In this document: in pieces, positions 1,415 through 22,680 of the stretch | Layout of the letters: each line of letters opens with the position of its first letter | Numbering within the stretch: position 1 is the stretch's first letter | From: Planctomycetaceae bacterium | GTDB lineage: Bacteria > Planctomycetota > Planctomycetia > Planctomycetales > Planctomycetaceae | NCBI GenBank assembly: GCA_021732415.1 | Contig: JAKFVC010000267.1 | Span: 1-37,615, forward strand | Length of the DNA stretch: 37,615 bases | Direction: 5' to 3' | Translations under genes and position numbers: made by a program | The notes under the pieces: generated by a model | Told to the model about the DNA's origin: nothing | What the model saw: only the letters and a program-made list of their open reading frames with translations | The model's database searches: none

Positions 1415-4400
1415 ATGAACAAGATCCCAATGACGTCCCCGAATCGGAGTTCGACACAGTCTTTTTCGGGTCCTGAACTGCAGCGAGGTCAACCTTTGGA
1501 TTTGCGAGCGAGTTTCGAATTTCACCGTTTGGCGTGCGGCACCTTCACATTTATTGCTTGCGGATTGATACCTGTTGTCGCCCAGGCCGAAAGTGATACT
1601 GACTTCTTTGAGAACCGCATTCGGCCGATTCTGGTAGCCAAGTGCGACGGATGTCATTCCAACGCCAAAGGTAAGACGAGTGGCGGGCTGGCCCTGGATA
1701 CCCGTGATGGTTGGCAGAAGGGGGGCGATAACGGAGCGGTGATCGTTCCCGGCAAGCCCGACGAAAGCTTGCTGATCAAGGCCATTCGATATCAGGACAA
1801 AGATCTGCAGATGCCGCCCCCGGAAAAGGGTGGCAAGCTGAGCGATCTCGAAATTGCCGCGTTGACCGAATGGGTAACTCGAGGAGCACCGGATCCACGC
1901 ATTACAGCCGCACGCATTGGTGGTATGTCGCGAGACGAGGCTCGCCGATGGTGGTCCTTTCAGCCGCTACGTGCCCCCGCAGTGCCGGCTGTCGCCGATG
2001 CCGCATGGCCGCGGACTGATCTGGATCGATTTATCGCCCATCACCGTGAGCAACATAGTGTGAAGCCGGTCGCCGATGCCGACAAGCGAACGCTGATTCG
2101 CCGCGCCACGTTTGATCTGACGGGACTACCGCCGACACCCGAGGAAATTCAGGCGTTCCTGCAGGATGACTCTTCGGATGCGTATAAAAACGTTGTCGAC
2201 CGGCTACTAGCTTCTCCTGACTACGGGGTCCGTTGGGGCCGGCATTGGTTGGACGTGGCCCGGTACGCCGACACGGCAGGGGATGGATCGGACTATCCGG
2301 TTCCTCAGGCGGGCTTGTACCGCGATTGGGTCGTGGACGCGATTAATAAAGATCAACCCTTCGATCAGTTCATTCGCGATCAAGTTGCCGGAGACATCCT
2401 GGCTCGATCGGCTTCCCCTGATGACTATGCTCGGTTGGTCACCGCCACCGGGTTTCTGGCGATTGGCAAACGCTACGGATATGCCCCGAATCCCGATTAT
2501 CAGTACCTCGATTTTGCCGACGTCATTGATTCGGTCAGCCGGTCACTGCTGGGATTGTCGGTCGGCTGTGCTCGCTGTCACGATCACAAATACGATCCGC
2601 TGACGGCCGCCGATTACTATGCTCTGTATGGGATTTTTCAAAGTACGACCTGGGCTTTCCCCGGCGGTGAAGAACAAAAACGTCCCTCGCAATTTCCGCC
2701 CCTGGTCCCCCCCGAGGAAGCCGCCAAACGCGATCAGGCCAAGGCGGCCGAAGTCGCCCGCTTGGACGGCGAGATCGCTCGCATCAAAACTGAAAAGGCC
2801 GCATTCGACGGCAGATTCTTCGCGGGTGGAATCGACCTCGGCTTCGAAGGTCAGCCGCTCGGAAAGCCACCATCCACGCCTTGGCTCGCTGCGGGAGCCG
2901 TTGCCGTTACGCCGGATGCTCAAAGTCCATTTACCCACGTGCATCCTGCAGGCAAGCAGGGGGCTCGATTGAGCTGCGCCGTGTTGAATGACGGAGTGCG
3001 GTATGTCTTCGAGAGATCACTACGAGCCACTCCCGGTCAACAGATGCATTTCACGGTCGATTTTCGCACCGTCGCGAATGCCGATCAACCGGGCTCATAT
3101 CGGTTCTATCTGGGGCGCGGCGTCGTGGCGTCAGTCGCGATTGATTGCAGCGTGAGTGCGAAAGAATTCGCCATCCGTAATGGAGCCAACTGGGAGGTGA
3201 TTCGCAAATTGGAGCCGGGGACCTGGTACACCTTGCGATTGAAGCTCGATCCCGCCAAGAAAACGTTTAGCGGAATTGTTGGGACGGCGGCTGATCTGAT
3301 TGCCTTCGAAGACAAAAAACTCGGCCTGAGTTGGGATGGTGTCGCCGACACATTTATTTGTGATGGAAATGGACACGCCTCAGGTCCGGCTCCGACTCGC
3401 GATCTCGATAATATCGGTTTGCAGACGACACCCTTTAATGCTCCCGGTGGGGAACCAATTCCGACGCCCGTGCTGCCTGCTGATTGGAAGGAACGCCTCG
3501 CCAAGCTGGATGTCGATCTGGCCGCGACAACGAAGTTGCGTGAAACGGAAGCGGCCCGCATGACCTATCCCGTGGCCTACGGCGTCAGCGAAGGTAAGCC
3601 GGTCAACGCAAAAATCCAAAAGCGGGGCGAGCCCGACCAGTTAGGTGACGAGGTCCCACGACGGTTCCTGGAAATCCTGGGAGGGGATCCGCTTCCCGCA
3701 GAAAATCCAGGCAGCGGCCGGCTGGAATTGGCCAACTGGCTTACCCGCCCATCCAATCCACTGACTGCTCGAGTCTTCGTCAACCGAGTCTGGCAATGGC
3801 ATTTCGGTCAGGGACTGGTGGCGACGCCGAGTGACTTTGGGACGCGCGGCGAATTGCCCAGTCACCCCGAACTCCTCGACTGGCTGGCGTCAGAATTCAT
3901 CGCGTCGGGCTGGTCGATGAAATCGCTGCACCGGCTGATTATGCACTCGCGAACATATCAACTCGGCAGCGATGACGATCCGGCTAACTTAAAGTCCGAT
4001 CCTGCGAATCGCTGGTATTGGCGTTACACCCGCCGCGCGCTGGATGCCGAATCAATCCGCGACGCGATGTTGACCATTAGTGGCCGTCTGGACCGATCGA
4101 CACCCGAAGTGCATCCGTTCCCACCTGTGGGGACGTGGGCCTTCACGATTCACAATCCGTTCCATGCGGTCTATGACAATAATCGTCGCAGCATTTATTT
4201 GATGGTGCAGCGTAATCGCAGGCACCCGTTTCTGGCACTCTTCGATGCCGCCGACCCGAACCAGAGTGTGGCAGAACGCCAGCCGACGACCACTCCCACG
4301 CAGACACTCTTCCTGATGAATTCGCCCTTCGTACACGAACAGTCAGAGGGATTCGCCAGCCGATTGCTCGCCATGCCTGGAGATGATGCGGCGCGGGCCC

Positions 4401-4591
4401 GGTTTGCATTTGAAGCCTGTCACGGGAAAGAGCCCTCAACGGACGAGATCAATGGTGCCCTGGCGTTTGTCGCCGGTTATACGCAAAAGTTGGCCGAACA
4501 GAGCGTTCCAGCAGATAAGCAATCTGTTGGAGCCTGGGCGGCGTTGGGCCGAGTGTTATTGACGAGTAATGGGCTGCTTTATGTCGACTAG
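1415..4591 (+). CDS. PSCyt1/DUF1549/DUF1553 multidomain cytochrome protein (pair 1)
   Basis: Large secreted protein of 1058 residues. A hydrophobic signal segment lies at about 38-58, after an unusually long polar N-terminus, so the true start may be downstream; no better ATG is present. Domains in order: PSCyt1 (CDGCH at 77-81, and the downstream MPPPEKG that is typical of the family), PSCyt2/DUF1549 ([11 protein letters not shown], then CARCHDHKYDP from 385), a beta-rich insert of roughly residues 465-700 that reads like a concanavalin/LamG-type fold, and PSD1/DUF1553 from about 770 (LANWLTRPSNPLTARVFVNR) to the end. Two CxxCH motifs suggest two c-type haems. The DUF1501 gene follows at 4726, the usual partner in planctomycetes. 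The biochemical role of the family is not established; a role in extracellular redox or polymer breakdown is inference. Confidence 0.95.
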   Translation: MNKIPMTSPNRSSTQSFSGPELQRGQPLDLRASFEFHRLACGTFTFIACGLIPVVAQAESDTDFFENRIRPILVAKCDGCHSNAKGKTSGGLALDTRDGWQKGGDNGAVIVPGKPDESLLIKAIRYQDKDLQMPPPEKGGKLSDLEIAALTEWVTRGAPDPRITAARIGGMSRDEARRWWSFQPLRAPAVPAVADAAWPRTDLDRFIAHHREQHSVKPVADADKRTLIRRATFDLTGLPPTPEEIQAFLQDDSSDAYKNVVDRLLASPDYGVRWGRHWLDVARYADTAGDGSDYPVPQAGLYRDWVVDAINKDQPFDQFIRDQVAGDILARSASPDDYARLVTATGFLAIGKRYGYAPNPDYQYLDFADVIDSVSRSLLGLSVGCARCHDHKYDPLTAADYYALYGIFQSTTWAFPGGEEQKRPSQFPPLVPPEEAAKRDQAKAAEVARLDGEIARIKTEKAAFDGRFFAGGIDLGFEGQPLGKPPSTPWLAAGAVAVTPDAQSPFTHVHPAGKQGARLSCAVLNDGVRYVFERSLRATPGQQMHFTVDFRTVANADQPGSYRFYLGRGVVASVAIDCSVSAKEFAIRNGANWEVIRKLEPGTWYTLRLKLDPAKKTFSGIVGTAADLIAFEDKKLGLSWDGVADTFICDGNGHASGPAPTRDLDNIGLQTTPFNAPGGEPIPTPVLPADWKERLAKLDVDLAATTKLRETEAARMTYPVAYGVSEGKPVNAKIQKRGEPDQLGDEVPRRFLEILGGDPLPAENPGSGRLELANWLTRPSNPLTARVFVNRVWQWHFGQGLVATPSDFGTRGELPSHPELLDWLASEFIASGWSMKSLHRLIMHSRTYQLGSDDDPANLKSDPANRWYWRYTRRALDAESIRDAMLTISGRLDRSTPEVHPFPPVGTWAFTIHNPFHAVYDNNRRSIYLMVQRNRRHPFLALFDAADPNQSVAERQPTTTPTQTLFLMNSPFVHEQSEGFASRLLAMPGDDAARARFAFEACHGKEPSTDEINGALAFVAGYTQKLAEQSVPADKQSVGAWAALGRVLLTSNGLLYVD

Positions 4592-4623
4592 TAAAACTTG
4601 AGGCAGGTGAGCCGGTTCCCGCG

Positions 4624-4670
4624 GCCGACGCTGCTAGCGTCGGCGCACCACCGACGCTAGCAGCGTCGGC
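4624..4670. repeat. Perfect 20-bp inverted repeat (CCGACGCTAGCAGCGTCGG family)
   Basis: The arms 4624-4643 and 4651-4670 are perfect reverse complements separated by seven bases. Each arm is itself close to a palindrome, so alternative cruciforms can form. Flanking bases (TTCCCGCG and CACGGGAG) extend the pairing imperfectly. It sits between the stop of the PSCyt gene and the start of the DUF1501 gene, so it could tune read-through or mRNA stability within the pair. No T-run follows, which argues against a classical intrinsic terminator. Confidence 0.88.
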
Positions 4671-4725
4671 CACGGGAGCGTTGAATTCAATATCGAACGT
4701 CGCAATCCATAGAAGGTCTTGAACA

Positions 4726-6123
4726 GTGAATTCTCCGATTACCTCTCGCCGTGAGTTTCTCCAAACTGCATCCGGGGGCTTTGGTGCGCTCGCTCTGGCC
4801 GGAATGTGGAACGAGTTGCAGGCCTCCACGTCGAATGATCCGCTCGCGGCGCGGCCCGGGCATTTTCCGGCGAAGGCTGAACGAGTTATCTTCCTCTATT
4901 CAACCGGCGGCGTGTCGCAAGTTGACACCTTCGACCACAAACCCAAACTCACGGCCGATCACGGCAAGTCGATCACCGCTTCCCGCTGGCTCAATAAGCC
5001 GGGCCAGTTTGCGCGGTTCCTGATCAAACCGCGGTGGGCGTTCAAACAATACGGCAAAAGCGGGACCTGGGTCAGCGATCTGTTCCCGCATATGGGTTCG
5101 GTCATCGACGATGTCTGCGTGCTGAATGCCATGTATTGCGACAGCGATGGCCATGATAAGGCAACCCTTGCTGCTCATACCGGTTCGGCCCAGTTTGCCC
5201 GCCCTAGTGCCGGAGCGTGGGTCAGTTACGGCTTGGGAACCGTCAATCGCAACCTGCCGTCGTTCATGGTGCTGGCTCCCGCCGCTCCCTATGCCGGAGC
5301 CCAAACCTGGGGCAGCGATTTCCTCCCCGCCTGTCATCAGGGAACCCACGTCATCCCCGGCCCAGAGCCACTGCCCAATCTCAAACCACGCGTGCCCGGT
5401 GTTGAGCTCCAGCAGTTGGAACTGAGCCTGTTGAGCAAGTTGAATCGCAGCCATCTCGAACGCCGCGCCGCAGACCAGGCCCTGGATGCCCGAGTGCGTT
5501 CGTTTGAGACCGCATTCGGCATGCAGAAGGAAGCCCCCGAAGCATTCGACCTGTCGAGCGAGACGGAAGAGACCTTGAAGTTGTACGGGGTCAATCGTGG
5601 CGCGACGACCGGCTTTGGCTGGCAATGCCTGGTGGCTCGTCGGTTGGCGGAACGTGGGGTCCGGTTCCTCGAACTGATCGACGTCGGGTCGAGTAACAAC
5701 TGGGATTCGCACGGCAATATGGCCGACCACGAGCGACTCGCCAAAGCGATTGATCAACCAATTGCCGGCCTCATCGCGGATCTCAAGCGGCGCGGAATGC
5801 TGGAGACCACGCTGATCGTATGGACGTCAGAATTTGGCCGAACCCCATTCCACCAGGACGCCAATCACGCCGGCCGCGAACACCACAATCTGGTCTTCTC
5901 ATCCTGGATGGCAGGGGGCGGAGTCAAAGGGGGCCTGGTCCACGGCAAGTCGGACGAATACGGCATCCTGCCCGCTGAAGGAGGCGTCCACACCCATGAT
6001 CTGCACGCGACAATGCTGCATCTGCTGGGCATGGACCACGAACGCCTCACCTTCCGCCACGCCGGCCGCGACTACCGCCTGACTGATGTGAAGGGGAAGG
6101 TGGTCAAAGAGGTCCTGACGTAG
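4726..6123 (+). CDS. DUF1501 protein, Tat-type leader (pair 1)
   Basis: 465-residue DUF1501 protein, a family related by fold to alkaline phosphatases and sulfatases. It starts at a GTG with AGAAGG about ten bases upstream. The leader SRREFLQTASGGFGALALAG has the twin-arginine form, so export in a folded state is likely. Family motifs seen: GGVSQVDTFDHKP at 61-73, TSEFGRTP at 367-374, GREHH at 383-387, AGGGVKGG, and the C-terminal HERLTFRHAGRDYRLTDV block. The Asp, Glu and His residues in these motifs are candidates for metal binding, by analogy with the superfamily. It lies 134 bases after the PSCyt protein and is probably co-transcribed with it. The substrate is unknown. Confidence 0.94.
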   Translation: MNSPITSRREFLQTASGGFGALALAGMWNELQASTSNDPLAARPGHFPAKAERVIFLYSTGGVSQVDTFDHKPKLTADHGKSITASRWLNKPGQFARFLIKPRWAFKQYGKSGTWVSDLFPHMGSVIDDVCVLNAMYCDSDGHDKATLAAHTGSAQFARPSAGAWVSYGLGTVNRNLPSFMVLAPAAPYAGAQTWGSDFLPACHQGTHVIPGPEPLPNLKPRVPGVELQQLELSLLSKLNRSHLERRAADQALDARVRSFETAFGMQKEAPEAFDLSSETEETLKLYGVNRGATTGFGWQCLVARRLAERGVRFLELIDVGSSNNWDSHGNMADHERLAKAIDQPIAGLIADLKRRGMLETTLIVWTSEFGRTPFHQDANHAGREHHNLVFSSWMAGGGVKGGLVHGKSDEYGILPAEGGVHTHDLHATMLHLLGMDHERLTFRHAGRDYRLTDVKGKVVKEVLT

Positions 6124-6428: not shown

Positions 6429-6457
6429 TTGAATTGTCCTCATCAATGTACCATAAT
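6429..6457 (+). promoter_or_regulatory. Possible sigma-70-like promoter for the ECF sigma gene
   Basis: TTGAAT (6429-6434) and CATAAT (6452-6457) are separated by 17 bases and lie 38 bases before the ATG at 6496. The match to TTGACA/TATAAT is good for a GC-rich genome, but this is a pattern match only. An ECF-type autoregulated promoter would look different and was not identified. Confidence 0.4.
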
Positions 6458-6495: not shown

Positions 6496-7158
6496 ATGGA
6501 TTCGGGGGATGATTCTCAACTGCTCCCACGAGAGCGGGAAAGACTGCCTGATATGGCCCAGACCGGCAATTCGTTTTCGACCTCGGCGTCGTTAATTCGC
6601 CGCGTCAAAGCGCGAGACCCAGTAGCTTGGCAAAGACTTTCTCGGTTGTATGGTCCGCTCGCCTATCGGTGGACTCGGCAATGCGGGTTGCAACCAAGCG
6701 ATGCGGCGGATGTCGTGCAGAATGTGTTTGTCTCGGTCTCGCAGAGTGTCGACCGTTATTCGTCTCAGGGGCCCAAGGCCTCCTTCCGAGGCTGGCTGTG
6801 GACGATTACCCGCAACGCTGTGCGAGAATTTCACCGCCAGCAAGCGTCGCTGCCACAGGCGGAGGGGGGCACAGATGCCCAAATCAGATTTCAGGAGGTC
6901 GCTGAGCCACTCGTCGCGAACGACGATACCCCTGACAGCAAGGATGGTTTCGATACCGCCGCCAGCCTGGCTCATCGCGCCCTGGGCTTGATCAAGGGGG
7001 ACTTTGAGCCTCTTACCTGGGATGCCTTCTGGCGAACGACGATTGACAATCAGCCCGCCACAGAAGTGGCCGCCGCACTGGGAATGACGGCCAAGGCTGT
7101 CCGGCAAGCCAAGTACCGGGTACTTTGCCGGTTGCGCGAAGTCCTGGCGGACGGATGA
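6496..7158 (+). CDS. ECF-type RNA polymerase sigma factor
   Basis: 220-residue sigma-70 family protein. Region 2 spans about residues 32-116, with DAADVVQNVFVSVSQSVDRY at 69-88 and FRGWLWTITRNAVREFHRQ at 97-115. The latter is the region 2.3/2.4 promoter-melting and -10 recognition part. Region 4 spans about 175-218, with a helix-turn-helix in ATEVAAALGMTAKAVRQAKYR. The linker between them is long, about 60 residues, and acidic. The next gene is a membrane Ser/Thr kinase. Sigma factors paired with Ser/Thr kinases are a recognised planctomycete group (the ECF-STK groups), so the kinase may control this sigma factor by phosphorylation; that is inference. No classical anti-sigma factor is seen. 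A second ATG at 6553 is a possible shorter start. Confidence 0.92.
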   Translation: MDSGDDSQLLPRERERLPDMAQTGNSFSTSASLIRRVKARDPVAWQRLSRLYGPLAYRWTRQCGLQPSDAADVVQNVFVSVSQSVDRYSSQGPKASFRGWLWTITRNAVREFHRQQASLPQAEGGTDAQIRFQEVAEPLVANDDTPDSKDGFDTAASLAHRALGLIKGDFEPLTWDAFWRTTIDNQPATEVAAALGMTAKAVRQAKYRVLCRLREVLADG

Positions 7159-7252
7159 TGACTTCCAGGTAACCGAATTCGCTAAAACCCCGTGAAATCT
7201 GACCTTTTGCAGCCAGAACTCTGGGCGAGTTCTGCTACGTGCGAATTTTCGC

Positions 7253-10200
7253 GTGGCGCTCGCGCATTGTATTAATAGCAGAGGTGTGAATTGTCCGCGT
7301 TCAGACTGGACCTCAGTCCGAATGAATCGAATGCAGGCCGCCAGAGTCCTCACAATGCCAGCGCAAATCGACTTCGAGTGCCTGATTGAGACCTTAGCCG
7401 AGCACGACGAGACATTTTCACGACCCGACGAAACCTCCGATTCCTCAATACTGGAGATCAAGGCGGAACTGCAATTGCTGGAGGCGAGTCTGCGTCGCTC
7501 CGATCCAGCCGACCCATTTGGCGAAGAATCCGCCTGCAATGAGGCCTTGAATATCGTCGAAGCCATCGGTCGCAATCCGTCATTTACGACGCGGCAACAA
7601 CTTGCTGAAGATCCACTCCCTTCGTCCGACGAATCAACGGTGCTCCCGTTGGGCGGTGTACTGGGGCAATATCGGTTGTTGCAGAAACTGGGCGAAGGTG
7701 GTTTCGGAACGGTTTATAAGGCACTGCATTCACGTCTGGACAAAATTGTCGCCTTGAAAGTCCTTACAGCCAGCCGGCTGCGAGACCCGCATGCCGTCGA
7801 TCGTTTTGATCGGGAAATGCGCGCGGTTGGCAAACTGCATCACATCAATATTGTGGCCGCACACGATGCGGGCGAGATTGACGGCATGCATTACCTCGTG
7901 ATGGAACTTGTCGACGGGATCGACCTGAGCAAACTGGTGAAGCAACACGGACGATTGCCAATTGGCGCCGCGTGCGAACTGATCCGGCAGGCGGCAGTCG
8001 GATTGCAGCATGTCCACGAACATGGATTGGTTCATCGTGACATCAAGCCCTCCAATCTCATGCTGACTCTGCCACAGAACCATGACGATGCCCCCGCCGT
8101 CAAGCTGCTCGACCTGGGGCTGGCGCTGCTTGATGAATCCCATCTCGAGCATGTTGGTGAGCTGACCGCCACCGGCCAGGTGATGGGAACGCTGGAATAT
8201 ATGGCGCCAGAGCAGGGCTCCGATACTCACACCGTAGACATCCGCGCCGACATCTATAGCCTGGGAGCCACACTTTATAAACTCCTGACGGGCAGAGCCC
8301 CCTTTTCGAGCGATCAGTATCGTACGCCAATGAAATTGCTGATGGCACTGGCGACTCAAGATCCTCCTCCGCTGACAGACCGCTGTGCCGAAATCTCTCC
8401 CGAACTAGAAGCGATCGTCCGGCGCATGCTGGCCAAGAATCCTGACGACCGCTACTCCACTCCGCGAGAACTCGCCGAGGCCTTGGCCCCATTCAGTCAT
8501 CCCGCCGATGTGCAGGCGCTGGTGGAGTTCCTCGCCAAGGCGGCGGACGAAGAAGTGATTGATGTCAACGCCCCGGAATTTATCGGTACTCTCAGCACAT
8601 CTCGATTGGGTTCGCCAGTGAGCGTGGCTTCCGATGCCGGCCACTCGACTCGGCGACCAGCGGGGCGGTGGCGTCCAGCGAAACTGGCACTCGCGATCAT
8701 GGCTTGCGGGATGCTCGTCGCGGCTGCGATCTATGTAATCCAGATTCAGACTCCACGAGGTGAGCTGATCGTCCAATCGGACTATGCGGGAATCATCGTG
8801 AAGGTGAAACGCGACGGACTCGAAGTCGATCACGGCTGGAGTTTGCTGAAGGGCAAGGACAACAAACAACTTATCCGCACCGGCCAGATCGAGATTGAAT
8901 TGCCTGCGGAACTGACCGGTGAATATACCGTCACGCCAAATCGCGTGACTCTCACCAGAGAGCGTCAAGAGATCGTTAGAATCGAACGGAAAGCAACGCC
9001 AGCTACGCCAATCGGAGAGAGAGAGCTTCCTCATCGCACACCTCCCACCGAATTCAGTAATGCGCCCAAGCCTGACGATCCAGCGAACTCAGTCGACCGC
9101 GACCGCGTAGCTGCGCAACACTGGATCAGCCGCGGTGGTGGAGGCAAGGTTGTTCTAAAGAGCAATGGAAAAACACTGTCAATTTCTCGCGACACGCGAC
9201 TTCCTGTCGTACCGTTTGAATTTCGTGCTGCCTCGGATTCCATTCCCGATATGGTCAGCGAAGACCTCGAACCACTCATTGGACTAACAGGACTGCAGAG
9301 CGTCGTTGTGGAGGGAAGTATGGTCGACGCTCGAGCGATTCGCTTTATGAGCAAGATTCCCAATCTCCGGAAAATTCGATTTACCAATAATCAAATTTGG
9401 ACGTCCGAACTGGGAGAGCTCCGCGAACTCTCCTTTCTGCACGAAATTCACATTGGTTACAGACAGGTAGATGATGACTGGAAGTTCATTCGCGAATTGT
9501 CACACCTGCGCAGCCTCGAGATCGCGAAATACACCGAACCTTCGATGGCAGATTTTCAAAAATGGAGTGAATTCCCCCAACTCCGTTCGATCCGGCTGGA
9601 CTGTTCTATCACTGAAGCAATGTCAGTCAAGGTTCAAGAACGCAATCCGCGCTGTCGGGTCGTCGGACGCTGGGTCGATCCAGACTCGAAGAACGGAGAC
9701 CCTCCCCGAACAAACCGCATCTACGGTGCCATAGGAATCGATCCCATAAGGACCGCCGCCAAGGTGCTGTTGCCGCTCGGGTTTCGGTTCTCTACTGCTG
9801 ATCGTTGGGACTCGAGCCATGAACTGACTCTGGCTTATGCGAAAGATCTCAGAAGTATCGACGCGTTTAATGTCTACACGGTACTCGTACCGCAGCACGT
9901 TCCATTCAGGGAGCAGGACCTGTCTGTCCTGGCACACTTTTCTTTCATCAGGCTGAATGCCGCACACTTGCCACAGGCCGACATATTCGCCAAGGTTCTA
10001 CCGTTATCGCTGGCAGTCGAAGAGATCAACTTCAGCAACTCCGACTTGACCGATGAAGGCTTACGGCACATTCAACGCATCGAATCATTCCCCATGTTGA
10101 ATGTGCAGGGCACCAGAGTCACGCGAACCGGAATTGAATCCTTCAAGCGAGCTCGACCCGCTTGCCAACTGATCAGCAATTTTTCTCCCCCCAGCGTGGC

Positions 10201-12394
10201 TGCCGCTCCGGAAGAACTTCCCTCCGCAACTCCGCAGAACCCTGTCCTTGCTGATCGTGAGCGTGCAGCAGCTGAGCTATGGCAGCAGCGTCTTGGTAGC
10301 GGAGCAACAAACGTTAACTTGCAGGGCGAGCCCACGTTCTTCGAACCATTCTCAAAGTTGCCTGACCAGCCTTTTTATCTGACTGAAGCGACAGGGCGGA
10401 ACGTCAAATTCCTGACGATCTCGGACCTTAAACATTTCGTCAACCTGACGGCTTTAAGGGCCTTTAGTCCTGGGGGAGAGGACATTGGCGTCAGGGCCAT
10501 TCCTTACCTCAAGCAAATGAAGGCACTCACTCGGTTGGATCTGACCAACTCCCGCATTCCGAGTTCCGCAGTCGCCGAGCTCCGCTTTATTCCGCACCTC
10601 ACCAATCTGGCAATTGCCGGAGACATGGTTGACGACGATTGGAAATTCCTGGATCAGATCAAGGTGTACCGACTTTTTCTATCCCGCTGTCAACCCATGT
10701 CGAAGGACTGGCAACGACTCCAGGAAGTCTCGCACTTGCGCCTGATTGAATTCCAGGACGACGTCGACATTGATGCCGCCGCACTCGCAGAATTCCAGCG
10801 ACGAAATCCTTTGTGTCAGGTGAAGCTGAGTCAACCAGAACCAAGAGTCGTCGGCGTGGATCCGGTCCGTGAGGCCGTTCGCCAACTCGCGGCAGGAAAT
10901 TCCGGGTTCAATATCATCTTCCCCGGAGTGCTCGGCCCCATCACGCAGAAGCTACTGGATGATCCGGCACCATTCGAAACACACATTATCCTCTTCAATC
11001 TTTCGAACGAGGATCCGACTCTTGCGCCAGATGCGTTAAGTCCACTGCGCGCGACTCCGTTTGCCGAACTACAGCTTCGTTCGCGGGGAGCCAGTGTTGA
11101 CAAGCTTCTGGCAGCGATGCCGGACGGTCTAGTGGGCAGACGTGTTAATATTTGTGACTGCAATTTGACCGATCAAGGGCTGCTGACTTTAAGCCGCATT
11201 TCGCGACCTAATACGCTAATCCTGTATAATACTCAAGTAACAGGTACAGGAATTAATGCTTTCCGTAAAGCACATCCGGATTGCCTATTGATAGGCAATT
11301 TCCCCACTTCCAGTACGGTCGCTGCCCCAGCAGATCGTGAACGTGCCGCAGCCGAGTTATGGCAGCAGCGCCTCGGTCGAGGCGTGTTGATGTATGCCGA
11401 ACAAGCCAACACGGTGTCATTCGATCCTTTCTCGAAGCTGCCCGACAAGCCATTTCATCTGTGTTTTGCCCAGGGCGAGGGGCTCAAGGAACTGACCAAC
11501 GCGGACCTGGAACAGCTCACCAATCTCGCCGATTTCAAATCCTTGTGTGCCTGGGGCGACAAAATCGATGCCGGAGCCATCCCCTATATCAAACAAATGC
11601 CGACGCTGATCGGGTTAGACTTGTCGAGGTCCCGCATCCCGAGTTCCGCAGTCGCTGAGCTAAGCGACCTGCCTCATCTTTCCAATCTGGTCCTTTCAGG
11701 AGAAATGATTGACGATCAGTGGAGATTCCTGCGGCAATTGAAATCGCCATACCGGCTCACGCTTACCAAATTTCAACCGACAGCAACAGACTGGCAACGT
11801 CTCCAGGAAGTTCCCCAATTGCGAGTGCTCCACTTCCACGACGACATTGATGTCGACCCCGTTGCGCTGGCCGAACTGCAGCGTCGAAATCCTTTATGCC
11901 AAGTTCTTGTCGGGTACCCGAAACGTCGATCGGTCGGCGTCGATCCCATGCGTGAGGCCGTCCGCGAACTCGCCAGTCGAAATATCGGATTGCAAATTCG
12001 AGTTGATCCTGCCATGTCGCGTGGTTCCACGGTGCAAGAGGTCCTGGATAATCCATCACCTTTCTATGTCGATATTCTCGAAATTCGACTTCCGAAAGAT
12101 CACCCAACTGTTAATCCAGAACTCTTCAAGCCGTTGCGCGCCATAACATACAACGAACTCCAATTTCGCTCAGAAAATGTCAGTGCAGACGATTTCGTGG
12201 CCGCACTTCCGGATGACTTGCGGGGCCAGTGCCTCAATTTCTCCGACACCGATCTCACCGATCAAGGACTTCTGCGATTGAGCCGCATTTCACGGCCAAT
12301 TCGATTAATTGTCAATAACACGAAGGTCACCCGCGAGGGAATCAACGCCTATCGCAAAGCCGATCCACACTGCCGGATCTGGAATAGTTTGTAG
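7253..12394 (+). CDS. Membrane Ser/Thr protein kinase with three tandem LRR-like modules
   Basis: 1713 residues from a GTG; ATGs at 7322 or 7355 are plausible shorter starts. Kinase domain about 140-410: GEGGFG loop 147-152, VALK with Lys169, HRDIKPSN 261-268 with catalytic Asp263, DLGLA from Asp287 in place of DFG, and APEQ at 318-321. All key catalytic residues are present, so it should be active. One membrane span lies at about 478-499, followed by a TPRGELIVQSD beta-rich segment often seen after the span in planctomycete kinases. The rest is three copies of one module, starting with Asp-Arg-(Asp/Glu)-Arg at 615, 1001 and 1361. Each has LRR-like repeats, an RRNPLCQV-type stretch, a VDPxREAVR segment and a closing DLTDxGL block. 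The kinase is probably cytoplasmic and the modules outside. The upstream sigma factor is the likely target. Confidence 0.93.
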   Translation: MALAHCINSRGVNCPRSDWTSVRMNRMQAARVLTMPAQIDFECLIETLAEHDETFSRPDETSDSSILEIKAELQLLEASLRRSDPADPFGEESACNEALNIVEAIGRNPSFTTRQQLAEDPLPSSDESTVLPLGGVLGQYRLLQKLGEGGFGTVYKALHSRLDKIVALKVLTASRLRDPHAVDRFDREMRAVGKLHHINIVAAHDAGEIDGMHYLVMELVDGIDLSKLVKQHGRLPIGAACELIRQAAVGLQHVHEHGLVHRDIKPSNLMLTLPQNHDDAPAVKLLDLGLALLDESHLEHVGELTATGQVMGTLEYMAPEQGSDTHTVDIRADIYSLGATLYKLLTGRAPFSSDQYRTPMKLLMALATQDPPPLTDRCAEISPELEAIVRRMLAKNPDDRYSTPRELAEALAPFSHPADVQALVEFLAKAADEEVIDVNAPEFIGTLSTSRLGSPVSVASDAGHSTRRPAGRWRPAKLALAIMACGMLVAAAIYVIQIQTPRGELIVQSDYAGIIVKVKRDGLEVDHGWSLLKGKDNKQLIRTGQIEIELPAELTGEYTVTPNRVTLTRERQEIVRIERKATPATPIGERELPHRTPPTEFSNAPKPDDPANSVDRDRVAAQHWISRGGGGKVVLKSNGKTLSISRDTRLPVVPFEFRAASDSIPDMVSEDLEPLIGLTGLQSVVVEGSMVDARAIRFMSKIPNLRKIRFTNNQIWTSELGELRELSFLHEIHIGYRQVDDDWKFIRELSHLRSLEIAKYTEPSMADFQKWSEFPQLRSIRLDCSITEAMSVKVQERNPRCRVVGRWVDPDSKNGDPPRTNRIYGAIGIDPIRTAAKVLLPLGFRFSTADRWDSSHELTLAYAKDLRSIDAFNVYTVLVPQHVPFREQDLSVLAHFSFIRLNAAHLPQADIFAKVLPLSLAVEEINFSNSDLTDEGLRHIQRIESFPMLNVQGTRVTRTGIESFKRARPACQLISNFSPPSVAAAPEELPSATPQNPVLADRERAAAELWQQRLGSGATNVNLQGEPTFFEPFSKLPDQPFYLTEATGRNVKFLTISDLKHFVNLTALRAFSPGGEDIGVRAIPYLKQMKALTRLDLTNSRIPSSAVAELRFIPHLTNLAIAGDMVDDDWKFLDQIKVYRLFLSRCQPMSKDWQRLQEVSHLRLIEFQDDVDIDAAALAEFQRRNPLCQVKLSQPEPRVVGVDPVREAVRQLAAGNSGFNIIFPGVLGPITQKLLDDPAPFETHIILFNLSNEDPTLAPDALSPLRATPFAELQLRSRGASVDKLLAAMPDGLVGRRVNICDCNLTDQGLLTLSRISRPNTLILYNTQVTGTGINAFRKAHPDCLLIGNFPTSSTVAAPADRERAAAELWQQRLGRGVLMYAEQANTVSFDPFSKLPDKPFHLCFAQGEGLKELTNADLEQLTNLADFKSLCAWGDKIDAGAIPYIKQMPTLIGLDLSRSRIPSSAVAELSDLPHLSNLVLSGEMIDDQWRFLRQLKSPYRLTLTKFQPTATDWQRLQEVPQLRVLHFHDDIDVDPVALAELQRRNPLCQVLVGYPKRRSVGVDPMREAVRELASRNIGLQIRVDPAMSRGSTVQEVLDNPSPFYVDILEIRLPKDHPTVNPELFKPLRAITYNELQFRSENVSADDFVAALPDDLRGQCLNFSDTDLTDQGLLRLSRISRPIRLIVNNTKVTREGINAYRKADPHCRIWNSL

Positions 12395-12582
12395 CTCTTC
12401 ACGCGCACGATTGAATGGGCGATCCATCCCAGTCACACGCGACTTGTATGAGTGGCGCCGGTCAATGACAAAAGCCAGGTGTCTGGAGGCAAAGCTCACC
12501 AGCGCTCTGGTCATTCGGCGGAATCTATAACGTAACGGCGCATTAAGCTGTTGAGTTGATGCGTCATCCTGTCGTATCGCTA

Positions 12583-12598
12583 GGTGGCGCGCGCCACC
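12583..12598. repeat. 16-bp perfect palindrome
   Basis: GGTGGCGCGCGCCACC is a perfect palindrome in the 290-base gap between the kinase gene and the first small membrane protein. It could be a dimeric regulator site or a DNA structural element. It has no loop, so a strong RNA hairpin is less likely. Nothing else in this gap is recognisable. Confidence 0.6.
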
Positions 12599-12684
12599 AT
12601 GAGTCGTCGTAGCCCCATGGATTGACATGCGCGGCCACGGCATTCTCCATAGCGCGCCAACACACTCTCTATTGTGAGGTCAAT

Positions 12685-12909
12685 ATGCTAAGACCGTTCG
12701 CATCGTTGCTCACGAATATCCTATTCATGGTTGTGCTGATCGCTGCACTAACCTGGGCAATGCGCGAGATCTCGCAATTCGATATCTCCGCGAATGGGGA
12801 GTCAATGAAAATCTATACGCAGCGAGGCGCAATCGTGATTCCACACTATCCACACATCCGCGAACACGAGGAAGACATGCGACGCCGTGGAATCAAGCTG
12901 TATCGATAA
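12685..12909 (+). CDS. Small single-span membrane protein A
   Basis: 74 residues, not recognised. The start is the ATG at 12685, preceded by GAGGT at a five-base spacing; an upstream in-frame start at 12622 has no such site. One hydrophobic segment lies at about 5-26 (ASLLTNILFMVVLIAALTWAM), followed by QFD and a charged C-terminus rich in Arg, His and Glu. It is clearly homologous to the protein encoded next (19 of the first 48 residues identical, with MLxP, LxxL, MxxLIxAL, W and QFD shared). The pair follows the sigma-kinase genes on the same strand, with 290 bases between. A role as a small partner of the membrane kinase is possible but only from position. Confidence 0.72.
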   Translation: MLRPFASLLTNILFMVVLIAALTWAMREISQFDISANGESMKIYTQRGAIVIPHYPHIREHEEDMRRRGIKLYR

Positions 12910-12932
12910 TAAGTCAAGTCCGTGGAGTTCTC

Positions 12933-13151
12933 ATGCTGAAGCCTCTCGTATCAGTGCTCAGGAGCGTTCTGTTGATGGCCGGATTGATCATGGCTCTTGG
13001 GTGGTTAACTAACCGGGTTGTCCAGTTCGATAGTGACGTCGCTGGTCCGGCAATGAGCATCATTCCGCGGAAGGGCGAAATGGCGGAACGTCAGCGGTAC
13101 CGCCAGCGCCAGGCAGAACTGCGAAGGCAGAAACACAAGCTGAGTCATTAG
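12933..13151 (+). CDS. Small single-span membrane protein B, paralogue of A
   Basis: 72 residues, not recognised. The ATG at 12933 has GGAG at a suitable spacing, and the gap to the previous gene is only 23 bases, so the two are probably co-transcribed. A hydrophobic segment at about 5-26 is followed by QFDSD and a very basic tail (many Arg, Lys and Gln; RQRYRQRQAELRRQKHK). It aligns without gaps to protein A over the first 48 residues, which supports both as real genes and points to tandem duplication. The tails differ: A is mixed acidic/basic, B is strongly basic. Confidence 0.72.
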   Translation: MLKPLVSVLRSVLLMAGLIMALGWLTNRVVQFDSDVAGPAMSIIPRKGEMAERQRYRQRQAELRRQKHKLSH

Positions 13152-13178: not shown

Positions 13179-14579
13179 TCACTCTTTCGGTACGCGCTTC
13201 AGCAACTCCGCAGGCTGACAAACAAGCCCACTCCGGATCACGTTCTCGATCTTGCGTGTGTTCCGAATGTCATCTAAAGGATTCGCCGTCAGCAAGATGA
13301 TGTCGGCGTATTTGCCAGCCTGAATTGAACCAAGGTATTCTTGCTGTTTGAGAGCCGCAGCATTGTGCAGTGTGGCCGCCTTCAAAGCTGCCGCTGGGGG
13401 CAGGCCCGATTCGACCAGCATTTCGAGCTCCTGATGCATGGAAAATCCCGGCACACACTGCGGTTCGGGAGAGTCCGTGCCGACCAGCAACGGAACGCCC
13501 GCCTTATAAAGTTTGCCCGTTAGCTCCTGGAACTTCGCGAATTCGCGGCGACGATCTTCGAGTGCTCCGCCTTGCGGGCAACCGGTCCGTTTTAAATAGA
13601 CGGGCCAGAAGTCTCGCAATCTTTTGGGTACTAGCGCGTTGTCAGGGTGATCTTTAACCTCGGGAACATCGGGCAACAGGATCATGTTGCGAAAAACGGC
13701 CAGCGTGGGATCGACGTACGTCTTGCGTTGCGCCAGATCGGCGACAAGTGCCTCGCACAGCGGATTGGACAGGTCGAGACGTCCGCGGTATCCCGGTTCT
13801 CGTTTGACATCACCGGGGATGACGTAGTTGTATACGGACCAAATGTGCTCTAAACAATCGATGCCGTCCTCGACCGCGTGCTGTGCGGAATAGTTTCCCA
13901 GATGAGCGGTGATAAACAATCCACGGCGATGCCCCTCGTCGATGATCGCCTTGCCGACTGGTCGCCCCGTACCCGCGTAAATCTTAACCGTGCTGATATT
14001 CCAGCGTTGCAGGTCGTCCAGGATCGCTGGGACCTGTGCCGGATCGGTGATGCCACGTCCGATGTCGCGGTGGATAGGAGGGTCCCCGTCGAGCAATGGA
14101 CTGCACGTAAAGACTCGCGGAGAGGATTCAGGATGAGCCATGGCCCAGCGGGCGACCAGCGTCGCCGCGACGATCTCTTCACCTGTGCTGCGAATTGAGG
14201 TGACTCCGGCGGCCAAGTAGAGCGGGAGGACTTCATCGCCGGTCATCCGCGCATAATCCAGGACATGGACGCTATGGGTATGCGCATCGATCAAACCGGG
14301 CAGAGCAAATTTTCCTCGGCCATCGATCCGTGTGGCGCCTTCGGGAATCTCCACCTTCTCGTCGGCGGCCGTCACCGACACAATTTTGTCGCCCCGGATC
14401 ACAATCGTGCGAGGAGTGAGCATCGTGCTGGATTCGGGGTCGAATACCGAGCAACCTTCAATCACCACGGCAGACGGAGTCTCTGCGGCCCATGTCGTTG
14501 TCGGGGAGGTCAGAACGACAACTCCCACGATGCCCCAGACGATACGAGATGCCGTCGTGCAACGTACTGTCGAAATCAC
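13179..14579 (-). CDS. Secreted metal-dependent amidohydrolase (imidazolonepropionase/prolidase-like)
   Basis: 466 residues from a GTG at 14579, chosen because GGAGA lies seven bases upstream and because it gives a clean signal peptide (hydrophobic IVWGIVGVVVL, cleavage near WAAE). An ATG at 14666 would add 29 residues without a visible ribosome site. The fold is a urease-superfamily TIM barrel. Metal ligands fit the two-metal pattern: His100 and His102 in DAHTH, Lys199 in VKIYAG (the position that is usually carboxylated), His226 in TAHLG, His245 in EHIW, and Asp369 in GTDSP. Family members hydrolyse cyclic amides or dipeptides; the substrate here is unknown. It is divergent from the GntR gene and could be under its control. 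Confidence 0.9.
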   Translation of the reverse strand: MISTVRCTTASRIVWGIVGVVVLTSPTTTWAAETPSAVVIEGCSVFDPESSTMLTPRTIVIRGDKIVSVTAADEKVEIPEGATRIDGRGKFALPGLIDAHTHSVHVLDYARMTGDEVLPLYLAAGVTSIRSTGEEIVAATLVARWAMAHPESSPRVFTCSPLLDGDPPIHRDIGRGITDPAQVPAILDDLQRWNISTVKIYAGTGRPVGKAIIDEGHRRGLFITAHLGNYSAQHAVEDGIDCLEHIWSVYNYVIPGDVKREPGYRGRLDLSNPLCEALVADLAQRKTYVDPTLAVFRNMILLPDVPEVKDHPDNALVPKRLRDFWPVYLKRTGCPQGGALEDRRREFAKFQELTGKLYKAGVPLLVGTDSPEPQCVPGFSMHQELEMLVESGLPPAAALKAATLHNAAALKQQEYLGSIQAGKYADIILLTANPLDDIRNTRKIENVIRSGLVCQPAELLKRVPKE

Positions 14580-14741
14580 GGTGATTCTCCGCGCAAGGCA
14601 TTCCCGAGTCGAATAAAGGACTACTGATCGGTGTGTAGAATCGCACATCGCACGACTTATTGCCATCTTGGCGACGGTGAAGGGTTATGCGGCTTGGGTA
14701 GGGTCTCAATTTGCTGACGTCGGATCCACGTTCTCCGTTTC

Positions 14742-14831: not shown

Positions 14832-15596
14832 ATGCGCTTAAAGCCAATTCCACGTCGGTCGACGGTCGATCAAGTTGTCGATCGGATCCTGGCTGTCATT
14901 AAACAGCAGAATCTCCAGCCAGGCATGCGATTGCCCGGCGAATTGGAATTGGTCGAACAACTGCAGGTCAGCCGCCCCGCCCTGCGAGAAGCACTGGCGC
15001 GACTCGACAGCATGGGCCTGGTCAGTATTCAACGCGGCCGGGGAACTTTCGTCAGCGATCGAACCAGTCTCGTCAATTGCGTGCAACTCGTTCGCAGTGC
15101 CTTGACGATCTCCCCCCGCGAATTACTCATGTATGCCGAATTGCGATCGGCGATTGAGGTCCAGGCAGTCCGGCAAGCGGCCGAGCGAGCCACCCCCGAC
15201 GACATCGAGATGCTGGAAGAACTGCTGCGGGAATTGAACGACTTCGACCGTCCCTACGAACAGGCGCTCGAGGTCGACTTTCGCTTTCATCGCAAGCTCG
15301 TCGATATTGCCGGCAACGAGTTGATGCAGAATGTGATGGAGGTCATCTACGAATTCGTTCTGGTTCAAATGGCCCGCACGACTCCGGCGCCGCGTGATAA
15401 CGAGTTGGGGCACCGACTGCATAACGAGATTGTCGCGGCCATCCGCCTGCATGACCCTGATGCCGCCGAACGGGCGATGCGGGCTCATATGCAGGCCGTG
15501 TTGAGTCGACTTAAGATCGGGATCGTGGCCGACGCTGCTTGCGTCGGTGCGGACGCTGGCAGCGTCCGCCACGGGGGGGCAAATGCTCGCCACTAA
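14832..15596 (+). CDS. GntR family regulator, FadR subfamily (FCD domain)
   Basis: 254 residues. A winged helix-turn-helix lies at about 10-76, with SRPALREALARLDSMGLV (47-64) as recognition helix region and QRGRGTFV as the wing. The FCD ligand domain spans about 95-228; its usual metal ligands are present as Asp149, His153, His197 and His219, so a metal-bound carboxylate effector such as a sugar acid or 2-hydroxy acid is likely by family analogy. The last ~24 residues (from about 231) are encoded by a palindromic repeat and are probably not part of the fold. The gene overlaps the start of the next, a PSCyt gene, suggesting an operon. A palindrome in its promoter suggests autoregulation. Confidence 0.93.
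   Translation: MRLKPIPRRSTVDQVVDRILAVIKQQNLQPGMRLPGELELVEQLQVSRPALREALARLDSMGLVSIQRGRGTFVSDRTSLVNCVQLVRSALTISPRELLMYAELRSAIEVQAVRQAAERATPDDIEMLEELLRELNDFDRPYEQALEVDFRFHRKLVDIAGNELMQNVMEVIYEFVLVQMARTTPAPRDNELGHRLHNEIVAAIRLHDPDAAERAMRAHMQAVLSRLKIGIVADAACVGADAGSVRHGGANARH
15525..15572. repeat. Palindromic repeat embedded in the 3' end of the GntR gene
   Basis: Two units of the CCGACGCTAGCAGCGTCGG family in tandem: 15529-15547 (one difference from the reverse complement of the core) and 15550-15568 (three differences). In the second unit, positions 2 and 18 have both changed, C to G and G to C, keeping the base pair. The repeat encodes the regulator's C-terminal tail and lies just before the likely start of the next gene at 15583. 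Confidence 0.8.
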
Positions 15597-18126
15597 ACTT
15601 CTCTCACTAGCGACCCCAGCCATGCTACTTAAACTGCAATCTTGCTTGCTTGTGGGATGTGTGCTCGTCGCGATGACCGGCCAAGTCCAGGCAAACGATG
15701 ATGAAGCGTTCTTCGAATCGAAGATCCGGCCGGTGCTGGTCGAGCACTGCTACGAGTGTCACTCCAGCAAAACCAAAGTCCCCAAGGGAGGCCTCCGGGT
15801 CGATAGCCGCGCCGCATTGTTGCGTGGGGGCGATAGCGGCCCGGCACTGGTGCCCGGCAAACCGGACGAAAGCCTGATCGTCAAGGCGATGAATTATGCG
15901 GATTCCGCCGTCGAAATGCCCCCGAAAGCGAAACTGGCCGATCCGGTGCTGGCAGACTTTCGACTCTGGGTGGCCAGAGGAGCGGTCGATCCGCGTAACG
16001 AGGTTCCACTCGTGGCTCAGCCGGCTGGCACGGACCCGACCAAGGGCCGAGATTTCTGGGCCTTTCAAGTGCCGAAGTCACATCCAGTCCCCGCTGTGAA
16101 GGATTCCCACTGGCCGCACACGGACGTTGATCATTTTCTACTCGCCAAGCTGGAATCGAAAGGACTGAAGCCGGTTCCCGATGCCGACCGTTATACATGG
16201 CTGCGACGCGTTTCCATCGATCTGACCGGCCTTCCGCCGACCCCCGAGCAAATCACCGAGTACATCGCGGACACAACGCCCCAGGCCAACGAACGCGTCG
16301 TCGATCGACTGCTGGCGTCGGCAGCATTCGGAGAACGTTGGGCGCGGCACTGGCTGGATCTGACTGGCTATGCGGATCAGATTGGGACGGCCAACGATCT
16401 CTTCGCCGAGCACGCCTGGAAATATCGCGACTACACGATTGCAGCGTTCAATACAGACAAGCCGTTTGATCAATTCATTCGAGAGCAAATTGCCGGGGAT
16501 CTGCTGCCTTATAAAACAGTGGAAGAACGTGCCTCGAACTTGATTGCAACCGGCTTCCTGTTGCTGGGCGATCTCACAGTTGTCGAAGCCGATAAAGCCA
16601 AGCTGCGGATCGATGTCGTTGATCAGCAGATCGACAAAGTGAGTAAGGCGTTCCTCGGGCTGACGGTGAGTTGTGCCCGCTGCCACGATCATAAGTTCGA
16701 TCCGATTTCACAGCGCGATTATTATGCGCTGGGCGGAATCTTTAATAGCACGGAATCGGTCCATAAAGTCGAGTGGGGCGTCTGGAGTTGGCCCGTCATC
16801 GCTGAGCTGCCAGAAACGGACCCTCAACGCGCCGAGCGTGCAACCAAACTCGCCCAGCAGCAGCAACGGATCGAACAACTGAAGGCCGAACGCGAGCAGG
16901 CCAAGCAGCGAAAGACTGTTGTTGCCACGGCCCTAAATGCGAAAGATGAAGAGGAGCCCGATCAGCCGACTCGCGAACGACTGGAAGCAGAACAAAAGGA
17001 GTTGGATGCCCGGATCAGGGGACTCGACACACAGATTCCGCATGCCGAGTTCTTCGCCCCCGCGGTGCCGGCAGCGTTCGCCGTACACGATTATCCTCAA
17101 CCCGCCGACATGCAGATCACCATTCGCGGGAACGCACATGCGTTGGGAGAAGCGGTGCCGCGCGGGGTCGTGCAGATCATGTCGCCCAAGCCGGTCACCA
17201 TTCCCGCCAACGAAAGTGGTCGCCGTCAACTCGCCGATTGGCTCATCAGTCCCGACAATGCTTTGACCGCCCGTGTCACGGTCAATCGCATCTGGCAGAA
17301 GCTCTTCGGCGAGGGGCTGGTGCGATCGGTTGATTACTTTGGAGTGCGTGGCGAACTCCCTTCGCACCCCGAGTTACTCGACTATCTGGCAACCCGGTTT
17401 GTTGCCGATGGCTGGTCGCAGAAGCGTCTCATTCGCAATCTGGTCCTCAGCCGGACATACCAATTGAGCAGTTCTCATAATGCCGCCGAAAACGCGGTTG
17501 ACCCCGACAATCGTTTGCTGTGGCGAATGAATCGCCGGCGCCTGGATGCTGAATCACTGCGCGACTCATTGCTCGCCACTTCGGGTCAGTTGATGACGTC
17601 GGCCGGTGGACCGGGTCTTCCCTTAGAGTATCCTGAAAACACCGGCGGCCTCTCCAAAGGTGGCGTCAATCCCCCCAACTTCCGACTCAACAAATTCCGG
17701 CCCGAGCAGGAGTTTGTGCGGACGATTTATCTGCCAATCATTCGCTCGGCGCCCCAGGCGGGACCAGCCGAGGTTCGCAATGTGTTTGACTTCACGCTGC
17801 CCGCGGAATTCGCCGGTCAACGCTCGGTGACCACGGTACCGACGCAAGCCTTGTTCCTAATGAATGCCAACGTCTTAAAGCAACGAGCCCGCGAACTGGC
17901 CCAAAAGGTCTTGTCTGTACCCGACGACGCGGCGCGGCTGGAGTCACTTTGGCTCCGTGTATTAAACCGCCCCATCACCGACACCGAACGTGCCGAATCT
18001 GTCGCGTTCCTGAATGATTTGCGTACGCTAGAACCAGGAACTGAAGCGGCGGCGACGGACCTCAAGGTCTGGTCGGAGCTGTGTCATGCGTTGCTGGCTT
18101 CTAATGAGTTTCTAGTGAGGATGTGA
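15583..18126 (+). CDS. PSCyt1/DUF1549/DUF1553 protein with coiled-coil insert (pair 2)
   Basis: 847 residues from the ATG at 15583, which follows a G-run; it overlaps the GntR gene by 14 bases. An ATG at 15622 would place the signal peptide (LLVGCVLVAMTGQVQA) at the very start and is a good alternative. Domains in order: PSCyt1 (CYECH at 56-60), PSCyt2/DUF1549 ([22 protein letters not shown] from 364), a charged Gln/Glu/Lys-rich coiled-coil stretch at about 410-480, and PSD1/DUF1553 ([22 protein letters not shown]) to the end. In pairs 1 and 4 the corresponding position holds a beta-rich domain instead. The DUF1501 partner follows at 18258. A periplasmic or surface redox protein is inferred from the signal and haem motifs. 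Confidence 0.94.
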   Translation: MLATKLLSLATPAMLLKLQSCLLVGCVLVAMTGQVQANDDEAFFESKIRPVLVEHCYECHSSKTKVPKGGLRVDSRAALLRGGDSGPALVPGKPDESLIVKAMNYADSAVEMPPKAKLADPVLADFRLWVARGAVDPRNEVPLVAQPAGTDPTKGRDFWAFQVPKSHPVPAVKDSHWPHTDVDHFLLAKLESKGLKPVPDADRYTWLRRVSIDLTGLPPTPEQITEYIADTTPQANERVVDRLLASAAFGERWARHWLDLTGYADQIGTANDLFAEHAWKYRDYTIAAFNTDKPFDQFIREQIAGDLLPYKTVEERASNLIATGFLLLGDLTVVEADKAKLRIDVVDQQIDKVSKAFLGLTVSCARCHDHKFDPISQRDYYALGGIFNSTESVHKVEWGVWSWPVIAELPETDPQRAERATKLAQQQQRIEQLKAEREQAKQRKTVVATALNAKDEEEPDQPTRERLEAEQKELDARIRGLDTQIPHAEFFAPAVPAAFAVHDYPQPADMQITIRGNAHALGEAVPRGVVQIMSPKPVTIPANESGRRQLADWLISPDNALTARVTVNRIWQKLFGEGLVRSVDYFGVRGELPSHPELLDYLATRFVADGWSQKRLIRNLVLSRTYQLSSSHNAAENAVDPDNRLLWRMNRRRLDAESLRDSLLATSGQLMTSAGGPGLPLEYPENTGGLSKGGVNPPNFRLNKFRPEQEFVRTIYLPIIRSAPQAGPAEVRNVFDFTLPAEFAGQRSVTTVPTQALFLMNANVLKQRARELAQKVLSVPDDAARLESLWLRVLNRPITDTERAESVAFLNDLRTLEPGTEAAATDLKVWSELCHALLASNEFLVRM

Positions 18127-18152
18127 TGACTTGTTAAGAAACCGACTTAGGA

Positions 18153-18178
18153 GAGCCGGGCGGCGTAAGCCCCGGATT
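18153..18178 (+). repeat. 26-bp dispersed repeat, copy 2
   Basis: Matches 6391-6416 at 23 of 26 positions (shared GAGCCGGGCGG and GTAAGC). It lies just after the PSCyt stop and just before another repeat at 18190. Confidence 0.6.
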
Positions 18179-18189
18179 CTTCGTCAACA

Positions 18190-18208
18190 CCGACGATAGC
18201 AGCGTCGG
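18190..18208. repeat. Single unit of the CCGACGCTAGCAGCGTCGG palindrome
   Basis: CCGACGATAGCAGCGTCGG differs from the core by one base and is followed by CTACGG, the same flank (C-T/C-ACG) as other copies. It lies between the PSCyt and DUF1501 genes of pair 2, the same position as the copy in pair 1. Confidence 0.7.
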
Positions 18209-18257
18209 CTACGGAATCCTTGAGACTGATACGCTTTCACTGCCGCTGAGATCTAAT

Positions 18258-22553: not shown

Positions 22554-22680
22554 TGTGTCCGCTGAATTGCTTCGTCGAGATCCGCAATTCAAGCGTCGCG
22601 GCAAAAGTTTAGTCCCGCATCTTATCCGCACGACAATCGCAACGATTCAACGCCGTTGATGCAGTAAGAATATGTGACTT

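Follow-up and report, generated by a model that had tools for sequence, protein, structure and literature searches.

The 37,615-nucleotide contig JAKFVC010000267.1 of a Planctomycetaceae bacterium (assembly GCA_021732415.1, 9.87 Mb, here G000), hereafter called the window, carries on its forward strand a gene for an extracytoplasmic function (ECF) sigma factor followed by genes for a membrane Ser/Thr kinase and two small membrane proteins, A and B. We consider it likely that the first two genes form a signalling module in which the sigma factor is activated by the neighbouring kinase, and that A and B are a lineage-specific addition to it. The sigma factor and the kinase are kept together, with a conserved element in the spacer between their genes, in three species: the window species and two of the three same-genus comparison genomes (G001 to G003), namely G003 and G002, the latter a metagenome assembly with 97% completeness and 5% contamination. 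The initial annotation had read all four genes as one signalling system with the small proteins as regular partners. This wider claim was not sustained, because the core occurs in G002 without A and B and 11 loci from other genera lack them as well.

The pairing of sigma factor and kinase was found at nearly all related loci. The window genome contains 12 relatives of the sigma factor, its own copy included, and 11 of them adjoin a kinase gene. The sole locus without a kinase (L066) lies on a contig that ends about 600 bases past the sigma gene, with 0.9 kb covered on its opposite side. The genomes G001 to G003 yielded 30 sigma matches, and all eight loci that were read had an adjoining kinase, as did the seven top-ranking sigma loci that were read from the family's other genera. 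In total a kinase adjoins the sigma gene in 26 of 27 related loci examined, which bears out the earlier view of the two genes as one unit. The loci read for the pairing and for the small-protein counts were the best-ranking matches and not random picks, and in the other-genera sigma search the best 18 first-look candidates per genome were scored, so that distant members could be missed. In the window, G003 and G002 the kinase adjoins the sigma gene, and no anti-sigma gene is found among the adjacent genes of the window; with these two properties the protein is a kinase-linked ECF sigma factor. None of the 13 window genes that were scanned besides the four, a part of the genes in the window, belongs to an anti-sigma family, and the nearest genes are a DUF1501 gene upstream and a convergent amidohydrolase gene downstream, in line with the annotation that no anti-sigma factor is visible. 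Pairs of an ECF sigma factor and a membrane Ser/Thr kinase are a kind already known in planctomycetes. According to one review the groups ECF59, ECF61, ECF62 and ECF217 are kinase-linked and the listed model members are planctomycete (PMC8999054).

The sigma protein is a member of the ECF superfamily. TIGR02937 (sigma70-ECF) matches residues 44-216 with 53.1 bits against a cut-off of 42.9, and Sigma70_r2 matches with an E-value of 4.9e-12. The region 4 models on their own reached 13 and 12.5 bits, which is under the Pfam cut-off, and the NCBIfam planctomycete models TIGR02984 and TIGR02989 gave matches far under theirs. The G002 orthologue is 82% identical, and the ratio of nonsynonymous to synonymous changes per site (pN/pS) between G000 and G003 is 0.09. 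Region 2.2 reads PSDAADVVQN in all three orthologues. They have N at a position where 16 of 17 other aligned sigma factors carry an acidic residue and the remaining one has T, and the S before the DAAD core is present in 3/3 orthologues but in 0/17 of the other proteins. The definition of group ECF43, in which DAED gives way to uncharged residues and a phosphorylatable Thr, does not apply, as two Asp are kept and the motif contains no Thr.

In EcfP the kinase is described to phosphorylate a Thr in the region 2.2 motif, restoring charge and activity, and in EcfK phosphorylation is also reported in the linker between the domains (PMC8999054, PMC13147305); for ECF59 one review gives the phosphorylation role to a Ser (PMC8103513). 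For the sigma factor of the window we infer a phosphorylation site of this type. In the proposed mechanism the outward leucine-rich-repeat (LRR) units of the kinase would bind a ligand in the envelope or at the surface, the kinase domain on the inner side would be switched on, and the kinase would phosphorylate the neighbouring sigma factor, with the Ser that directly precedes DAAD in region 2.2 as the candidate site. Phosphorylation would restore negative charge and binding to RNA polymerase, as described for EcfP/PknT. Since control of the sigma factor is proposed to come from phosphorylation by the kinase, no anti-sigma factor would be needed. Alternatively, the kinase may not act on the sigma factor directly, and the latter may be bound by an unlinked anti-sigma factor or regulated through its amount alone. 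The retained DAAD fits this explanation, and according to PMC8999054 the groups outside ECF43 retain DAED or comparable charges and may work differently. We regard it as unlikely in view of the kinase adjacency at 26 of 27 loci and of the neighbours scanned, among which no anti-sigma family was found.

The four same-strand genes are present and positioned as annotated. The open reading frames (ORFs) were called at 6496-7158 (sigma factor), 7253-12394 (kinase), 12685-12909 (A) and 12933-13151 (B), and the annotated 290 bases between kinase and A agree with these coordinates, but two starts have to be moved. The first in-frame start codon available to the sigma gene in G003 and G002 is equivalent to window position 6553, and the G003 kinase has its start at the codon equivalent to 7355. 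In G002 the Met equivalent to 7355 is conserved, but the frame is open for 32 codons further upstream. Once both starts are adopted, the spacer between sigma and kinase genes measures 196 bases. Comparison of this spacer between G000 and G003 gave a local score of 169, which was reached by none of 300 shuffles. A stretch of 32 bp within it is identical to G002 at 31 of 32 positions, again with 0/300 shuffles reaching the match. A search with the 20-bp core, allowing up to 3 mismatches, found one copy each in G000, G002 and G003 and none in G001; a control pattern gave one match (in G003). The element was rejected as a genomic repeat on account of its single match per genome in three genomes and its absence from the fourth, and as an RNA on account of a fold z-score of -1.2 (28/200 shuffles as good) and no match in Rfam. 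Our guess is a promoter or an operator.

A possible sigma-70-like promoter was located upstream of the sigma gene (Table 1). The promoter scan of this region gave 7 sites against 4.5 (sd 2.4) in shuffles, which is weak alone. By eye, the hexamers and their spacing are kept in G003 and, as TTGAAT-17-CACAAT, in G002. The 200-base region upstream of the sigma gene did not align with G002 above shuffles (64/300 reach the score), and the evidence for the putative promoter is therefore weak. A real promoter of this type would point to housekeeping transcription of the gene.

The kinase is of the Hanks type, with a Pkinase match at E 6.8e-50 and intact P-loop, catalytic Lys, HRD, D[FL]G and APE motifs. 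Hydropathy alone predicts a single strong transmembrane segment, the strongest hydrophobic stretch beginning at ORF residue 478. The first approximately 470 codons have a pN/pS of 0.22 between G000 and G003. The annotated triplicated sensor was confirmed as three C-terminal units of about 350 residues each, but these are not equally alike, with 53% identity between units 2 and 3 and only 28-29% between unit 1 and either of them. LRR matches to the sequence were below the Pfam cut-off. An AlphaFold model of unit 2 had a mean pLDDT of 87.2 and a pTM of 0.85. Structure comparison with this model gave mostly LRR proteins among the 50 matches listed (Z 13.4-9.8, 141-180 residues aligned within about residues 1-205), the first two of those listed being coupling factor B. 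Foldseek also returned LRR proteins with E-values down to 9.9e-8, yet with TM-scores of only 0.20-0.34. Residues 206-350 of the unit were barely covered. As modelled, the N-terminal part of about 205 residues of unit 2 has an LRR fold.

The number of sensor units is three in the window, two in G003 and three in G002. In a tree of the eight units two fully supported clades were obtained. Two of the G002 copies fall into the clade of unit 1, and the third groups with window unit 2 (72% identity, support 100/99). The second unit of G003 is nearest to unit 3 of the window by identity (64%), but no supported branch unites them. As number and types of the units differ among the three species, units have probably been gained or lost since the species split. 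In other genera we read the sensor-module locus (4-15 kb) of those 11 genomes that matched the module best. The unit was located inside a kinase ORF at eight of these loci, beside a kinase at one, and in an ORF cut by the contig end at two. No sigma relative was detected at any of the 11 (BLAST, E 0.01). For this module search the best 12 first-look candidates per genome were scored, and more distant members may have escaped it.

The small proteins A and B are paralogues, with 24 of 72 aligned residues identical (33%, E 3e-13), and each has one N-terminal hydrophobic stretch as its strongest by hydropathy, as expected from their annotation as small single-span proteins. Family searches gave no match above cut-off for either protein; for A, the matches below cut-off to Pfam FixQ (E 0.04) and PufQ (E 0.07) and to NCBIfam NF045890 (E 0.004) were rejected. 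In PHROGs A reached only E 0.12 and B gave nothing; a search of plasmids, phages and viral contigs, made with A but not with B, gave no match. Titles and abstract openings in the literature described no such small proteins beside kinase-linked sigma factors, but the search aimed at small membrane proteins was narrow and we do not claim their absence. Compared with G003, A has a pN/pS of 0.35 (bootstrap 0.22-0.58) and B of 0.55 (bootstrap 0.37-0.79), while the amidohydrolase, compared between the same genomes, has 0.10. A and B are genuine protein genes under purifying selection. In A the C-terminal tail is better conserved than the membrane half, with a nonsynonymous distance (dN) of 0.08 for the last 34 codons against 0.26 for the first 40. 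In B it is the membrane half that is under constraint (pN 0.20, pS 0.76), with a drifting tail (pN 0.46, pS 0.44). Because of these different constraints the two proteins are probably not redundant.

A search of 59 relatives with the A/B model found the A/B pair only in G000 and G003. The gene order in G003 is that of the window (DUF1501, sigma factor, kinase, A, B, convergent amidohydrolase). No A/B-type protein was found in G001 and G002 at E 0.1. G002 contains the same sigma factor, the same modular kinase and the same convergent amidohydrolase, but the distance between kinase and amidohydrolase is 22 bases, compared with 785 in the window and 1024 in G003, and neither BLAST nor a small-protein profile built from six sequences detected a small protein on the 17-kb contig. 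Likewise no small protein was found at the 11 other-genera sensor-module loci (best profile E 0.4) or at the seven further other-genera sigma loci. The expectation that homologues recur beside kinases with the same module thus held in two of three species and failed in G002 and in 11/11 module loci of other genera. Among 392 genomes drawn from the phylum four had a match at E 0.01, and only the own genome is credible; the draw may or may not have included G003, and with the best 15 first-look candidates scored per genome, remote members may have escaped. Matches in G024 (E 0.025) and in G090, G243 and G385 (E 0.002-0.006) were dropped as chance membrane-segment matches inside frames of 701-1118 residues, and a 156-residue protein of G003 (L072, E 0.00045) was dropped because only 31 membrane residues aligned.

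Among the 59 relatives a third paralogue, C, was again present only in G000 and G003 (C186, L013, about 2429-2650; C643, L012, about 7029-7250). In both genomes it keeps its place beside a conserved neighbour without Pfam match, and no kinase or sigma gene was detected on its contig; these contigs are short (18 kb in G000, 8 kb in G003), with 2.4 kb and 0.6 kb, respectively, left between C and the contig end. It had been argued beforehand that homologues lying mostly away from kinases would speak against a partnership; this is the case for C, but not for A and B, which keep their place in both species. These data are compatible with A and B being bystanders, that is, members of a small duplicating membrane-protein family which settled by chance between convergent genes. 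The unrelated neighbour of C, the lack of matches in G001 and G002, and the variable surroundings of A and B agree with this: the spacer between kinase and A is not conserved between G000 and G003 (score 17, reached by 262/300 shuffles), and the gap between A and B measures 23 bases in the window but 116 in G003. Purifying selection on both copies and their maintained place in two species argue against it, and we see the bystander explanation as quite possible, though somewhat short of an even chance.

A second explanation is modulation: A and B would act on the kinase within the membrane, through contacts between helices or through tails that touch the outer sensor units. A precedent is ScrA, which is reported to interact with the transmembrane domain of SaeS (PMC12239555). 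The place beside the kinase is kept in both genomes that have A and B, each protein has one membrane helix, and the conserved tail of A would fit such a contact. The charges beside the helix (+1 before, -1 after) weakly favour a tail on the outer side, where the sensor units are predicted, though the far tail is positive (+3, +7). However, the kinase is kept without A and B in G002, the module loci of other genera lack them, C has no kinase on its contig, the kinase-to-A spacer is unconserved, and A was modelled poorly outside its helix (pLDDT 64.5, pTM 0.33). Modulation therefore appears improbable to us. A more specific form of it, in which A and B evolved recently as a membrane accessory to the sigma factor and LRR kinase, arising by duplication in one lineage and settling beside the kinase, with the nearly invariant tail of A reading or gating the outer sensor units, themselves in rapid change of copy number, we hold to be decidedly doubtful; if true, the accessory would be a young case of small-protein regulators recruited to a sigma factor controlled by a Ser/Thr kinase.

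A and B could also be output genes transcribed by the sigma factor, the slot after the kinase holding swappable envelope cargo. In five of ten sigma-kinase loci of the window genome, the window counted among the ten, the next same-strand gene is surface-protein-like; the slot thus often holds envelope proteins, and A and B are membrane proteins at this position. On the other hand, upstream of A no motif common to both species was found (262/300 shuffles score as well), a promoter common to the sigma and A upstream regions gave no signal (229/300 shuffles score as well in G000, 92/300 in G003), and the motif of the surface proteins did not turn up in 18 other-genera loci. We consider it unlikely that A and B are such an output.

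The five surface-protein-like ORFs (L062, L063, L064, L070 and L071, all on other contigs of the window genome) have 1001-1854 residues, two of them being cut by the stretch read. They show Cadherin, Calx-beta, SdrD_B or FG-GAP matches and share an N-terminal motif that we take to be LEPR-like. The motif occurs in only these five of 394 ORFs of at least 120 amino acids across 20 loci, and in 0/262 ORFs across the 18 loci of other genera. The pattern was written after seeing examples, and the counts are post hoc and come without a genome-wide base rate.

Taken together, we favour the two-gene module with A and B as a later addition. The small proteins would most simply have been gained in the ancestor of the two species that have them, between the kinase and its convergent neighbour. 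The core is retained in G002 without them, and if they take part they would act as an optional membrane accessory. Several points weigh against this reading. Since no more than three species were found to have the kinase, the absence of A and B rests on G002 plus more distant loci. A and B may instead have been lost in G002, though this genome also lacks paralogue C at the search threshold. Both proteins stay by the kinase in the two species that have them, and the tail of A is nearly unchanged. Finally, two Asp of the DAED region remain in the sigma factor, whose charge is reduced rather than absent, and its phosphorylation is a proposal.

Table 1. Positions of the described features in the window.
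Feature	Position	Strand	Remark
ECF sigma factor gene	6553..7158	+	ORF open from 6496; start 6553 taken from orthologues
Membrane Ser/Thr kinase	7355..12394	+	1679 residues from ATG 7355; ORF open from GTG 7253
Protein kinase domain	7670..8464	+	motifs GEGGFG, VALKVL, HRDIKPSN, DLGLA, APE
Kinase transmembrane segment	8684..8743	+	predicted by hydropathy
Sensor unit 1 (LRR type)	9095..10183	+	ORF residues 615-977
Sensor unit 2	10253..11302	+	ORF residues 1001-1350; AlphaFold model
Sensor unit 3	11333..12391	+	ORF residues 1361-1713
Conserved 32-bp element in sigma-kinase spacer	7248..7279	+	20-bp core at 7255-7274, identical in G000, G002 and G003 with a single copy in each
Possible sigma-70-like promoter TTGAAT-17-CATAAT upstream of sigma gene	6429..6457	+	consensus scan 9/12
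Small membrane protein A	12685..12909	+	74 residues
Small membrane protein B	12933..13151	+	72 residues
Convergent amidohydrolase	13179..14666	-	downstream neighbour common to the three species; start not settled; context, outside module

The locus is surrounded by several PSD1/PSCyt2 (DUF1553, DUF1549) and DUF1501 genes (window 1415-6123, 15547-19685 and 21192-28961). At 27540-28961 one protein combines a PSCyt1 cytochrome domain with WD40 domains.

The core is a clear case among the little-tested kinase-linked sigma factors of planctomycetes, and its three orthologues permit prediction of a phosphosite. The changing set of sensor units on a single kinase makes bacterial receptor diversification tractable to study. 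A and B show that a neighbour can resemble a part of a pathway in one genome and yet be a recent local gain.

Compared with known systems, the locus resembles ScrA-SaeS in having single-span small proteins beside a sensor kinase. For ScrA an interaction is described, whereas A and B are known from position and topology alone and G002 has the orthologous kinase but neither of the two proteins. The same sensor module occurs in membrane kinases with LRRs from this planctomycete family (G027, G004, G278, G234, G427 and others), at whose loci neither a related sigma gene nor a small protein was found in the 4-15 kb read. The core resembles the kinase-linked ECF sigma factors of ECF43 (EcfP/PknT of Vibrio and EcfK/PknS of Xanthomonas) and of the groups ECF59, ECF61, ECF62 and ECF217, with which it shares a sigma factor of weakened region 2.2 charge beside a transmembrane Hanks-type kinase and no anti-sigma factor. 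As differences, the sigma factor of the window has no Thr in place of DAED but keeps two Asp with a Ser just before them, and its kinase carries a leucine-rich-repeat sensor.

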